64,000 nt of DNA, from assembly GCA_913046365.1 (NCBI GenBank), contig CAJWRM010000003.1:1-64000 (forward strand), given 5' to 3'. Below are positions 37,673 through 41,385 of the stretch, piece after piece. This DNA is from an uncultured Flavobacteriales bacterium (lineage in GTDB: Bacteria > Bacteroidota > Bacteroidia > Flavobacteriales_D > Crocinitomicaceae). The translations under genes were made by a program, and so were the position numbers. Below the pieces are notes generated by a model. That model was not told where the DNA came from and searched no databases. It worked only from the letters and a program-made list of their open reading frames with translations. Position 1 is the stretch's first letter. Each line of letters begins with the position of its first letter.

Positions 37673-38584
37673 ATGATAGATAAATACGGTTTTCACGAAG
37701 TTCCATCTTCCCCATCTATAGACAAGGTTGGTGTGGAAGAACGCGTATCTAGATTTCAATCAAGAAGCATCAAAACGACTGCAAAAATGCAGGGGCTTAA
37801 AATGGTTCTTAGTATGATTGATCTGACTACACTTGAGGGCAAGGATACACCAGGTAAAGTAAGACAAATGTGTTTTAAAGCCGCTCATCTTCATGACGGC
37901 CATCCTGACTTACCAACAGTTGCTGCAGTATGCGTATATCCCTCTATGGTTGGCATAGCAAAATCAATTGTTGGCGCTTACGGTATTAAGGTAGCTTCTG
38001 TTTCTACTGCTTTTCCTTCAGGTCAAGCACCCTTGGATGTTAAACTTGCAGATACCAAGTATGCGGTTGATCATGGTGCGGATGAAATAGATATGGTTAT
38101 TTCAAGAGGTAAGTTTTTAGCTGGAGATCATGCGTTTGTTTTTGATGAAATCGCTGCGATAAAAGAGGTTTGTGGGACTGCAAGGTTAAAAGTTATTTTA
38201 GAAACTGGCGAGCTAATAACACTAGATAATGTTCGTCGAGCAAGCGATATAGCGATCTATGCTGGTGCAGATTTTATAAAAACTTCAACGGGTAAAATTC
38301 AACCTGCAGCAACATTACAGGTTACTTATACGATGCTTCAGTCGATAAGGGATTATTATGATGCTACTGGAAAAATGGTTGGTATGAAACCTGCTGGCGG
38401 AATTTCTAATTCTAAGCTTGCCTTACATAATTTAGTTATGGTAAAAGAGGTTCTTGGTGAAGCTTGGTTGACAAATCAATGGTTTCGATTTGGTGCTAGT
38501 AGTCTTGCCAATGATGTTCTAATGCAAATTATTAAAACTGAATCTGGCGTTTATCAATCTGCTGATTATTTTACATTGGATTAA
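37673..38584 (+). CDS. deoC: Deoxyribose-phosphate aldolase
   Basis: DeoC splits 2-deoxyribose-5-phosphate into glyceraldehyde-3-phosphate and acetaldehyde. The 303 residues include MIDLTTLEGKDT, VAAVCVYPSMV, IDMVISRGKFL, KVILETGEL, the Schiff-base region GADFIKTSTGK (Lys203) and MKPAGGIS. The length is that of the longer class found in eukaryotes and many Bacteroidota. It is one base from the aldehyde dehydrogenase that follows, which could oxidise the acetaldehyde released. The operon has a good promoter-like box. Confidence 0.95.
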   Translation: MIDKYGFHEVPSSPSIDKVGVEERVSRFQSRSIKTTAKMQGLKMVLSMIDLTTLEGKDTPGKVRQMCFKAAHLHDGHPDLPTVAAVCVYPSMVGIAKSIVGAYGIKVASVSTAFPSGQAPLDVKLADTKYAVDHGADEIDMVISRGKFLAGDHAFVFDEIAAIKEVCGTARLKVILETGELITLDNVRRASDIAIYAGADFIKTSTGKIQPAATLQVTYTMLQSIRDYYDATGKMVGMKPAGGISNSKLALHNLVMVKEVLGEAWLTNQWFRFGASSLANDVLMQIIKTESGVYQSADYFTLD

Positions 38585-38585
38585 T

Positions 38586-40031
38586 ATGAGTACAAACAAA
38601 AACAATTGGGAATACGCCGCTTCTGTCGAGAGTACAGGTCATATAAATTTGAAGAAAAAATATGGGTTGTATATCAATGGAAAATGGGTTAAACCGTCGT
38701 CTAAGAAATATTTTTCTTCATCTAACCCTCATGATGAGCAACATATAGCGGATGTAGCAAAAGCCAATACAGAGGATGTGAATTTAGCTGTGGAAGCTGC
38801 TGACAAGGCATTTAAAGAGGTATGGTCTAAAATTAGTGCTGCAGAAAGAGGGAAGTATATTTTTAGAATTGCTAGATTAATGCAAGAGCAAGCACGTGAG
38901 CTTGCAGTAATTGAATCTCTTGATTCTGGCAAACCGATCCGAGAAGCTCGAGATATTGATATTCCCTTGGCATGCAATCATTTCTTTTATTATGCAGGTT
39001 GGGCTGATAAATTGGAGTATGCATTTCCAAATCAATCCAAAGAGCCTCTTGGCGTTGCTGGACAAATTATACCTTGGAATTTCCCCTTACTCATGGCAGC
39101 ATGGAAAATAGCACCTGCTCTTGCTACTGGTAATACGGTTGTTCTTAAGCCAGCAGAGACTACCTCTTTAACTGCATTGAAATTGGCAGAAATAATTGAG
39201 GCTTCAGGTATTCCTCCGGGAGTAGTAAATATTGTAACAGGATTCGGGGATACGGGTGCAGCAATTGTGTCGCATCCAAAAGTTTCAAAAATAGCTTTTA
39301 CAGGTTCCACTGGGGTGGGTAAGCTCATTCAAAAAACCATTGCTGGCTCAGATAAGAGGGCAACACTCGAATTGGGTGGTAAGTCTGCGAATATAATTTT
39401 TGACGATGCACCGATTGACCAAGCAGTAGAAGGAATCATAAATGGAATATTTTTTAATCAAGGTCACGTGTGCTGCGCAGGTTCAAGATTGTTTGTGCAG
39501 GAGAATGTGGCAGATAAGGTCATTAGAAAGCTAAAGCATAGAATGCAATCTCTCGTTATCGGAAACCCCCTTGATAAGAATACTGATATTGGTGCAATTA
39601 ATTCAGAGGAGCAGCTCAAAATAATAAATAAATACATCGATATTGGTATTAAAGAGGGATCTGAATTTTTTCAAACCGATTGTACTTTGCCATCGAAGGG
39701 GTATTATTGCCGTCCAACACTTTTTATCAATGTTGCACAGTCTAGTATTTTGGCGCAAGAGGAAATATTTGGTCCAGTTTTGACAATTCAAACTTTTAGA
39801 ACAGTTGATGAGGTAATTCAAAAAGCAAATAACTCTCCTTATGGACTAGCTGCCGGGGTATGGACAGATAAAGGTTCCAAGATTTTCAACCTTACTTCAA
39901 AGTTGAAAGCTGGTGTTGTTTGGGCAAACACCTATAACAAGTTTGACCCTTCATCTCCTTTTGGTGGATATAAAGAAAGTGGTTTTGGAAGGGAAGGTGG
40001 TTTACATGGATTGGGGGCTTATCTTAAATAA
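38586..40031 (+). CDS. NAD(P)-dependent aldehyde dehydrogenase (ALDH16-like catalytic subunit)
   Basis: The 481-residue enzyme has a full active site: IIPWNFPLLMAAWK, LKPAETTSLTALKL, FTGSTGVGKLI, Glu262 in LELGGKSAN and Cys296 in GHVCCAGSR, with the usual 34-residue spacing. It lies one base after deoC and 8 bp before a half-length ALDH. The order deoC, active ALDH and inactive ALDH half recalls ALDH16, in which both ALDH parts are fused. Acetaldehyde is the likely substrate, as an inference from the neighbour. Confidence 0.92.
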   Translation: MSTNKNNWEYAASVESTGHINLKKKYGLYINGKWVKPSSKKYFSSSNPHDEQHIADVAKANTEDVNLAVEAADKAFKEVWSKISAAERGKYIFRIARLMQEQARELAVIESLDSGKPIREARDIDIPLACNHFFYYAGWADKLEYAFPNQSKEPLGVAGQIIPWNFPLLMAAWKIAPALATGNTVVLKPAETTSLTALKLAEIIEASGIPPGVVNIVTGFGDTGAAIVSHPKVSKIAFTGSTGVGKLIQKTIAGSDKRATLELGGKSANIIFDDAPIDQAVEGIINGIFFNQGHVCCAGSRLFVQENVADKVIRKLKHRMQSLVIGNPLDKNTDIGAINSEEQLKIINKYIDIGIKEGSEFFQTDCTLPSKGYYCRPTLFINVAQSSILAQEEIFGPVLTIQTFRTVDEVIQKANNSPYGLAAGVWTDKGSKIFNLTSKLKAGVVWANTYNKFDPSSPFGGYKESGFGREGGLHGLGAYLK

Positions 40032-40039
40032 CAATAGAT

Positions 40040-40918
40040 ATGAAACGTTTAGAGGTATTAAAGACATACAAGATATATATTGGCGGAAAGTTTCCGAGAA
40101 GCGAATCAGGAAGGTTTTACAAGGTGCTAAATAAAGCTAAAGAGCCTATTGCTAATGTATGCTTAAGCTCAAGAAAAGACCTTAGAAATGCTGTTCAGGC
40201 TGCTAGAAAGGCACAAGGTTCTTGGCAGGAGAGAACGGCCTTTAACCGTGGACAAGTGTTATATAGAATCGCTGAAATGCTTGAGGGAAGAAGGGCTCAA
40301 TTTGTGGAAGAATTAATGCTTGAAAATTATACTAAAAAAGAGGCGCAAACGGAGGTGGATAATTCCATAGATAGAATTGTTTATTACGCCGGTTGGTGTG
40401 ATAAATTTAATCAGGTAGCTAGCTCTGTAAATCCTGTTAGTTCTTCTCATTTTAATTTTTCGAGTTATGAACCAATGGGTGTAATAGGAATTTTGGCAGT
40501 ACAGTCTTCTGGTCTATTGGGATTAGTTTCAATGCTTATGCCTGTTATTGCAGGAGGTAATTCATCAGTGATTATTGCTTCTGAAGACAAACCTCTCTGT
40601 GCAGTTACATTGGCTGAGGTGCTAAATTCATCTGATGTACCAGGTGGCGTTGTAAATATATTAACTGGTTCTATTGCTGAATTATGGTCACCGTTGTCCT
40701 CTCATATGGATGTTAATGGAATAAGTATAGATGCGGTTAACGAACACGTTTCTGATGTTCAATTGGCTTCCGTTGATAATCTGAAGCGTGTACGTATTTA
40801 TTCAAATGATTTTAGTCTGATTAAAGAACAAGGTATTCAATTTATCACTGACTTTCAGGAGCTTAAGACAACATGGCATCCCATTGAGAAAATAGGTGGT
40901 GCATCAAGTTCCTATTAG
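40040..40918 (+). CDS. Half-length aldehyde dehydrogenase without catalytic domain (ALDH16 pseudo-domain-like)
   Basis: The 292-residue protein matches the first ~270 residues of an ALDH: KIYIGGKFPRSESGRFY, ARKAQGSWQERTAFNRGQVL, YYAGWCDKFNQV, YEPMGVIGILAV and DVPGGVVNILTG. It ends before the catalytic Glu and Cys. Even in the shared part the PWN segment (IPWNFP in the neighbour) is replaced by AVQSSG. The reading frame is intact and closes normally, so it is not simply a broken gene. Together the two ALDH genes encode 773 residues, close to bacterial ALDH16 proteins as I remember them. It probably binds the active subunit. Confidence 0.85.
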   Translation: MKRLEVLKTYKIYIGGKFPRSESGRFYKVLNKAKEPIANVCLSSRKDLRNAVQAARKAQGSWQERTAFNRGQVLYRIAEMLEGRRAQFVEELMLENYTKKEAQTEVDNSIDRIVYYAGWCDKFNQVASSVNPVSSSHFNFSSYEPMGVIGILAVQSSGLLGLVSMLMPVIAGGNSSVIIASEDKPLCAVTLAEVLNSSDVPGGVVNILTGSIAELWSPLSSHMDVNGISIDAVNEHVSDVQLASVDNLKRVRIYSNDFSLIKEQGIQFITDFQELKTTWHPIEKIGGASSSY

Positions 40919-41385
40919 AAATAAGGTGCGTCTTTAATTTCTACTAGCCAATTTTCTCTTAGCTCATGTAAGCTCTCTATTCTTGGATTGAAAACAAAAT
41001 CACCTTTATAGGACCCTATATCATGGTAGGAAACGAGTTTTGGAGTTTCGTTTTTTAGAACAAGGACATTGAGTCGATTGAAGAAATCAACCTCCAAATG
41101 GTTTTCGATCATTTTTACAAAATGTACGGAGGAATCAATTGAGCATCCCGAAATGCGTTCTATTGATTCATCAACAACTAACACGATGTATTGATTGAAT
41201 AAAAGCTGACCATTCGCACAAAGTGGCTTTTGGTGAGCTTTCCAAGAGCCTGTAAACGTTTTGATTTGATTTTCAATTAGATTTGCTTCCTGATCGTTTA
41301 AACTTCTGTTGCACAGATAGGTCCAAACCCGACTTTCATCAGGCATTTCTGGAAATAGTCTTTTAAAGCTCTGCTGCATTGGCAA
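40915..41385 (-). CDS. Bacteroidota conserved protein (often mislabelled ABC transporter ATPase)
   Basis: The 156-residue cytoplasmic protein shows MPDESRVWTYLCNRSL, FTGSWKAHQKPL, YIVLVVDESIERISGCSIDSS (residues ~67-87) and DFFNRLNVLV. I recognise the family from Bacteroidota genomes, where it is called ABC transporter ATPase, yet no Walker A, Walker B or signature motif is present. Its function is unknown. It overlaps the HdrB-like gene by 23 bp, so it belongs to that operon. A downstream ATG at codon 3 is an equal start candidate. Confidence 0.75.
   Translation of the reverse strand: MPMQQSFKRLFPEMPDESRVWTYLCNRSLNDQEANLIENQIKTFTGSWKAHQKPLCANGQLLFNQYIVLVVDESIERISGCSIDSSVHFVKMIENHLEVDFFNRLNVLVLKNETPKLVSYHDIGSYKGDFVFNPRIESLHELRENWLVEIKDAPYF

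Follow-up and report, generated by a model that had tools for sequence, protein, structure and literature searches.

A split relative of ALDH16, encoded by two adjacent genes beside deoC in an uncultured Flavobacteriales bacterium

Gene order at the deoC locus

The DNA analysed here (the window) is a stretch of 64,000 nucleotides, positions 1 to 64,000 of the forward strand of contig CAJWRM010000003.1 in assembly GCA_913046365.1, from an uncultured Flavobacteriales bacterium of the phylum Bacteroidota. It contains three consecutive genes, for the aldolase DeoC, for an intact aldehyde dehydrogenase (ALDH; the gene is here called aldA) and for a shorter ALDH-like protein, here called the half ALDH. 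The last two were proposed in the initial annotation to be a split version of ALDH16, an enzyme in which both ALDH parts lie in one chain. The genes are as follows:

37673-38584, plus strand: deoC, deoxyribose-phosphate aldolase, 303 amino acids (aa), above the cut-off of TIGR00126
38586-40031, plus strand: aldA, catalytically intact ALDH, 481 aa, with Glu262 and Cys296 and the motifs PWNFP, LKPAE and FTGST
40040-40918, plus strand: half ALDH, stand-alone counterpart of the ALDH16 C-terminal domain, 292 aa, matching residues 501-764 of the ALDH16 structure 6mvr

The three genes form a compact run in the order deoC, aldA, half, with all frames intact and with gaps of one base between deoC and aldA and of eight bases between the aldA stop codon and the half gene. 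Coordinates, catalytic residues, gene order and the combined length of 773 residues for aldA and the half were all as first annotated, the two being separate genes in different frames. DeoC scored 165.8 bits against TIGR00126, for which the cut-off is 117.3. Seven matches to the Aldedh model were found in the genome, and aldA and the half are an adjacent pair among them.

Anatomy of the half ALDH

Bacterial ALDH16 from Loktanella is represented by structures 6mvr, 6mvs, 6mvt and 6mvu (Liu and Tanner 2019, as cited in PMC8160307). The comparison set beforehand for the idea of a split ALDH16 pair was that of the half with solved chains, and here the idea held: the best match was the second domain of bacterial ALDH16 (6mvr/6mvu, residues 501-764) at 158.4 bits, compared with 105.2 bits for the best ordinary ALDH and 49.9 bits for the first domain of 6mvr. 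The match to the second domain of 6mvr extended over the tail of the half, whereas in the Pfam Aldedh model the half covered only positions 5-232 of 461.

When aldA was aligned with an ordinary ALDH, three halves and the second domains of two fused proteins, the PWNFP, LKPAE and FTGST motifs proved to be gone from the half and the catalytic domain absent. What is present is a degenerate domain of the type that binds nicotinamide adenine dinucleotide (NAD), an oligomerization arm (21 residues between the helix end and the P-x-G-V motif) and a terminal strand, FQELKTTWHP, with almost no residues between the NAD-binding part and the tail. The half had been described as stopping before the catalytic residues; this is right as regards the missing catalytic domain and the intact frame, but the protein does not simply end there, as the place of the catalytic domain is taken by a tail alignable with the final strand of ordinary ALDHs. 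The K-x-x-W pattern in this tail was found in 93 of the 96 split halves collected below and in all 81 fused second domains; two of the three exceptions have Q for K and the third is cut by a contig end. Judged from its sequence, the half is an old ALDH copy that has lost the catalytic domain and the NAD-binding motifs and has kept the arm and the terminal strand.

Losses of this kind might also mark a decaying duplicate of an ordinary ALDH, in effect a functionless pseudogene, and the missing catalytic domain and NAD-binding motifs would agree with that. The conservation of the K-x-x-W tail in 93/96 halves argues against it, as does the finding that no ordinary ALDH is as near to the half as the second domain of ALDH16 is.

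aldA is missing what the half retains

Among solved structures (270 distinct PDB sequences were matched) the best match of aldA was the first domain of 6mvr, with 470.9 bits, the next being 447.7 bits. On the basis of its residues, with Glu262, Cys296 and all three motifs retained, aldA is predicted to carry out NAD-dependent aldehyde oxidation.

In ALDHs the arm and the terminal strand together make up the oligomerization domain, and ordinary ALDHs have a two-strand arm ahead of PWNFP and end in a YTQLKTVWV-type strand. Both elements are missing from aldA, in which the arm is short and the C-terminus falls just short of the terminal strand. Counted by eye, the distance from the helix end to P-x-G-V is 10 residues in aldA compared with 20-24 in the four nearest ordinary ALDHs, to which this comparison is confined since a script for the arm anchored few of the 21 ordinary ALDHs in the set. 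By script, the AGWxD-PWN spacing was 22-23 residues in 93 of 96 split aldA proteins (of the remaining three, two were mis-anchored and one had no anchor) and 20 residues in 80 of 81 fused first domains. The terminal-strand pattern occurred in none of the 96 split aldA proteins; its strict form was present in 10 of the 21 ordinary ALDHs, and the other 11 show a strand of K plus hydrophobic residues by eye.

The same division of elements characterises ALDH16, in which the catalytic part lacks the arm and the terminal strand and the second part carries both; in the fused loci collected here, too, the oligomerization elements are lost from the catalytic part and present in the second. The ALDH domain, the half and the deoC neighbourhood all point to ALDH16, as first proposed. 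Family models do not make this distinction: no NCBIfam match of aldA or the half, among the 25 best listed, reached its cut-off, and Pfam gave plain Aldedh for both. A catalytically dead subunit may thus easily be miscounted as an enzyme.

Co-occurrence and selection within Bacteroidota

Among 395 genomes of the window's phylum, a half-like match was present in 72, lying in a frame of 288-486 residues in 67 of them and in a frame of at least 806 residues in the other five. Split-type aldA, called at 62% identity or above (the next values were 55% or below), was found in 67 of the 395 genomes, and these were identical to the 67 that carry a split half. Thirty-nine loci of the phylum were fetched, 34 split and five fused; the other 33 of the 67 were called split by frame length and a separate aldA match only, and one genome (G096) was fused by the half search and absent from the list of aldA matches.

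deoC, aldA and the half lay together in 30 of the 34 fetched split loci, and deoC adjoined all five fused genes. The genes were apart in five genomes (those of four fetched loci, and G131), all of which kept both aldA and the half. A distance of 6.4-6.6 kb separates aldA from the half in two genomes belonging to one family, and in three genomes of one genus the half, aldA and deoC are on three separate contigs. The half is therefore retained when aldA is no longer its neighbour, and so behaves as a trans-acting partner would.

The ratio of nonsynonymous to synonymous substitution rates (dN/dS), estimated for eight pairs of relatives, was 0.04-0.16 for the half and, where computable, 0.03-0.10 for aldA; these values are rough, as dS is near saturation in several pairs. 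By this measure the half is under purifying selection. Together with its presence in exactly the 67 genomes of 395 that have aldA, and its retention in the five where the genes have moved apart, this makes the idea of a functionless pseudogene barely credible.

Split and fused loci in other phyla

The possibility that the split form is limited to one phylum was considered and rejected, as split pairs were found in samples from four further phyla, each phylum being named from the record title of the genome at the centre of the sample. Genomes were matched with profile A1. For the sample around a Chloroflexota genome, 68 of 221 genomes matched and 25 complete split pairs were accepted; the corresponding figures were 9 of 149 and six pairs for the phylum of an Acidobacteriota genome, 101 of 150 and nine pairs for that of a Gemmatimonadota genome, and 27 of 140 and 21 pairs for that of a "Deltaproteobacteria" genome, ranked as Myxococcota by the tree tool. 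These pairs come from 80 fetched loci, mostly ones with short frames. Of 299 Pseudomonadota genomes 27 matched the same profile, and since every frame was 779-871 residues long these are fused by frame length.

In all, 96 split-pair loci were accepted, including the window's and the 34 others of its phylum, and the pair is thus not a chance arrangement; the open frames of the halves in this set follow from the way in which loci were selected. Eight loci that run off a contig or have a disrupted ALDH frame (L239, L241, L256, L269, L277, L280, L281 and L296) were left outside the 96 pairs. The 81 fused loci exclude L095, L156 and seven others truncated at the start; five more that are fused or cut (L266-L268, L270 and L271) were not added to the counts, and L284 was assigned to neither set on account of its in-frame stop. 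Named genomes were also scanned, and the best 80 of at least 590 loci, ranked against a fused sequence, gave 71 full-length fused genes, seven cut by contig ends and two with a broken frame; with this ranking the lack of split pairs there carries little weight. A search of viral contigs gave five stretches, none of which is a relative. Taken from these sequences, the two-gene form of ALDH16 is a widespread and apparently old one.

Fused homologues beside deoC, the search for which had been suggested at the outset, were found in other genomes. The stretches fetched included deoC, in some cases as a piece at a contig end, for 86 of 95 split loci (the window's excluded) and for 79 of 81 fused loci. 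Scored against the window's DeoC, the proteins from split loci gave 187-454 bits (187 being a contig-end piece) and those from fused loci 82-249 bits, so that DeoC follows the divide between split and fused types.

Several loci showed other arrangements. In L251 and L252 (genomes G849 and G769) aldA and the half are together and deoC is adjacent on the opposite strand, which indicates that the operon has been rearranged. In L296:3097-5750 (genome G1308) a single frame encodes DeoC and a partial ALDH, and a half ALDH lies downstream; this may be either a join of deoC to the ALDH gene or a broken assembly. In L095:3383-5852 and L256:3430-5795 the domains of a fused-type ALDH16 lie in different, overlapping frames, most likely as a result of frameshifts in the assembled contigs. 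L284:3183-5837 (genome G1106, from the phylum of the Gemmatimonadota genome) encodes an ALDH16 of the fused type whose interdomain linker contains one in-frame TAG; this may be an independent split or an error of sequencing or assembly.

Relationship of the split and fused forms

Trees were built from 24 to 38 split and 24 to 40 fused rows. In the first of them the distant outgroups were flagged as long branches, and nearer outgroups gave the same result. An alignment that included the free-standing halves (A2) was discarded, since the invariant columns indicated that MAFFT had placed these halves over the N-terminal region of aldA.

In the tree of the ALDH domain, rooted with ordinary ALDHs, the split (38 rows) and fused (24 rows) types were sister clades with support of 100/98 and 100/99, and aldA and fused ALDH16 lay together on one side of a branch (100/99) from the six ordinary ALDHs sampled. 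Within both clades genomes of different phyla were intermixed, which suggests that split and fused ALDH16 alike have been passed between phyla. The tree of the half domain, rooted over a long branch with the N-terminal parts of ordinary ALDHs, again placed the fused domains in one clade (100/99), whereas the unity of the split type was unsupported (66/0); support for a single split clade had gone from 82/84 through 91/43 to 66/0 as sampling widened. The fused proteins could therefore derive from within the split type. In approximately unbiased (AU) tests a tree that joined L060, the deepest of the fused lineages, to the split clade was not rejected (p = 0.104), whereas one that joined the two deepest fused lineages to it was (p = 0.008).

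These results bear on whether the split form is simply a broken fused ALDH16 gene, in which case it would be derived and silent on the origin of the fusion, although compatible with the function proposed below. The sister topology is compatible with either a split or a fused ancestor, the AU test tolerates the split clade beside L060, and the TAG in the linker of L284 shows that such breaks may happen; on the other hand, the two trees rooted with ordinary ALDHs, of the ALDH domain and of the half domain, each separate the fused clade from the split type at 100/99, and the split clade could not be joined to the two deepest fused lineages. On balance we regard breakage as rather unlikely, and the sequences at hand make it improbable that a fused gene broke up recently. 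The initial annotation held that a split version would help to explain how the fusion arose: the trees bear this out only in part, since they oppose a recent split inside the fused family while allowing either order of events. An early split and an early fusion are both possible, and we prefer fusion.

The scenario that we favour for this early history, while giving it slightly less than an even chance, is that the two-gene form is ancestral, that a single fusion gave rise to all fused ALDH16 and that the split pairs are living forerunners of a family whose original task was the disposal of acetaldehyde from DeoC. A tandem ALDH duplicate beside deoC would have shed its catalytic domain and turned into an obligate oligomerization subunit; its catalytic partner would then have lost its own arm and strand, and the single fusion would have followed.

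A proposed two-protein ALDH16-type complex

We consider it probable, at about 0.8, that aldA and the half together make up an ALDH16-type enzyme whose two parts are produced as individual proteins and dock into a complex that oxidises the acetaldehyde produced by DeoC. The homology, the elements lost and retained, the linkage, the co-occurrence and the selection are seen in the sequences; the complex, its stoichiometry and its substrate are what we infer, and the earlier suggestions of the half as a structural subunit and of acetaldehyde as the substrate are kept at that strength. aldA, with its NAD-binding and catalytic residues intact, would perform the chemistry. The half would dock on aldA where the second subunit sits in ordinary ALDH dimers, like the second domain of fused ALDH16, and would supply the oligomerization surfaces, giving a lasting assembly, most simply A2H2, that imitates an ALDH tetramer. 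Made beside deoC, the enzyme would oxidise acetaldehyde liberated by DeoC from deoxyribose 5-phosphate.

Nine split loci in which aldA and the half share one frame with a single stop codon between them can be read as one chain, and one of these, L051, a natural pair of the same class as the window's, was modelled in this way with AlphaFold2. A first model, made from 20 rows without fused proteins, had a predicted local distance difference test score (pLDDT) of 78.9 and a predicted template modelling score (pTM) of 0.58, but its alignment was too shallow and its catalytic domain partly poor. A second model, from 106 rows of which 32 were fused, reached a pLDDT of 90.5 and a pTM of 0.64 with good domains, although the placement of two domains is untrustworthy at so low a pTM. 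Foldseek gave ALDH16 as the best full-length match of both models, with template modelling (TM) scores of 0.55-0.58 by query length and a root-mean-square deviation of 17-22 angstrom; a second aligner listed matches to the aldA part only and had no ALDH16 among the 50 shown. For the interface between aldA and the half that had been anticipated in the initial annotation, these single-chain read-through models give no confident docking and, with so uncertain a placement, at most lean against it.

Several points count against the two-protein enzyme. Neither L051 model, run without a fused control, places the half as in 6mvr, the second despite the 32 fused proteins in its alignment. In the sequence search the margin of aldA for ALDH16 over ordinary ALDHs is small (471 vs 448 bits), and the co-occurrence of aldA and the half comes in part from linkage and kinship. 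The supply of deoxyribose 5-phosphate is undocumented, as the phosphopentomutase DeoB (TIGR01696) was not found in the window's genome (G000, estimated completeness 94%), an absence of little weight since Bacteroides, among 14 controls, likewise gave no match.

The undocked half in these models would suit a different role, that of a part-time regulator or scaffold acting on aldA or DeoC, for example a tether between DeoC and the ALDH for channelling acetaldehyde, and no permanent subunit. deoC is linked to split and fused types alike, and the three genomes with the genes on separate contigs would permit their separate regulation. The elements missing from aldA are, however, exactly the oligomerization elements present in the half, and in fused ALDH16 the same elements are covalently joined to the catalytic part, which makes a part-time role improbable.

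Relation to known enzymes

The aldA-half pair shares with bacterial ALDH16 the two domains, which are the best solved-structure matches of aldA and the half, the allocation of the oligomerization elements, missing from the catalytic part and carried by the second, and the deoC neighbour. It differs in being two genes and two proteins where ALDH16 is one chain, and in forming its own clade in the ALDH-domain tree. Since it is not a single polypeptide, we class it as a split relative of ALDH16 and not as a member. With ordinary ALDHs (the ALDH1/2 and betaine-aldehyde dehydrogenase types) aldA shares its catalytic residues, and the half derives from such an enzyme, but in these the arm and the terminal strand are part of the enzyme itself and no partner protein is needed. 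Human ALDH16A1, also of the ALDH16 family, is a fused protein. The reviews PMC8160307 and PMC10650815 describe it as a pseudoenzyme without catalytic residues. ALDH16 is thus known, but none of the titles and abstracts listed in our search, with partial open coverage, dealt with a split ALDH16 or with ALDH16 beside deoC, and an earlier mention of the two-gene form or of the deoC link is possible.

ALDH16 has been puzzling for its extra, inactive domain. With two genes this domain can be removed, added back or exchanged in vitro, so that its role in assembly and catalysis becomes directly testable. The recurrent deoC neighbour suggests acetaldehyde as a substrate for the ALDH16 family, and, with split and fused types as sister groups, an origin of the domain by duplication, catalytic loss and fusion becomes open to testing.

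Flanking features

A scan for promoters and terminators found fewer sites than in shuffled sequences. Downstream, a 156-aa open frame with a TTG start lies on the minus strand at positions 40915-41385 of the window, its 3' end overlapping the last four bases of the half gene convergently.

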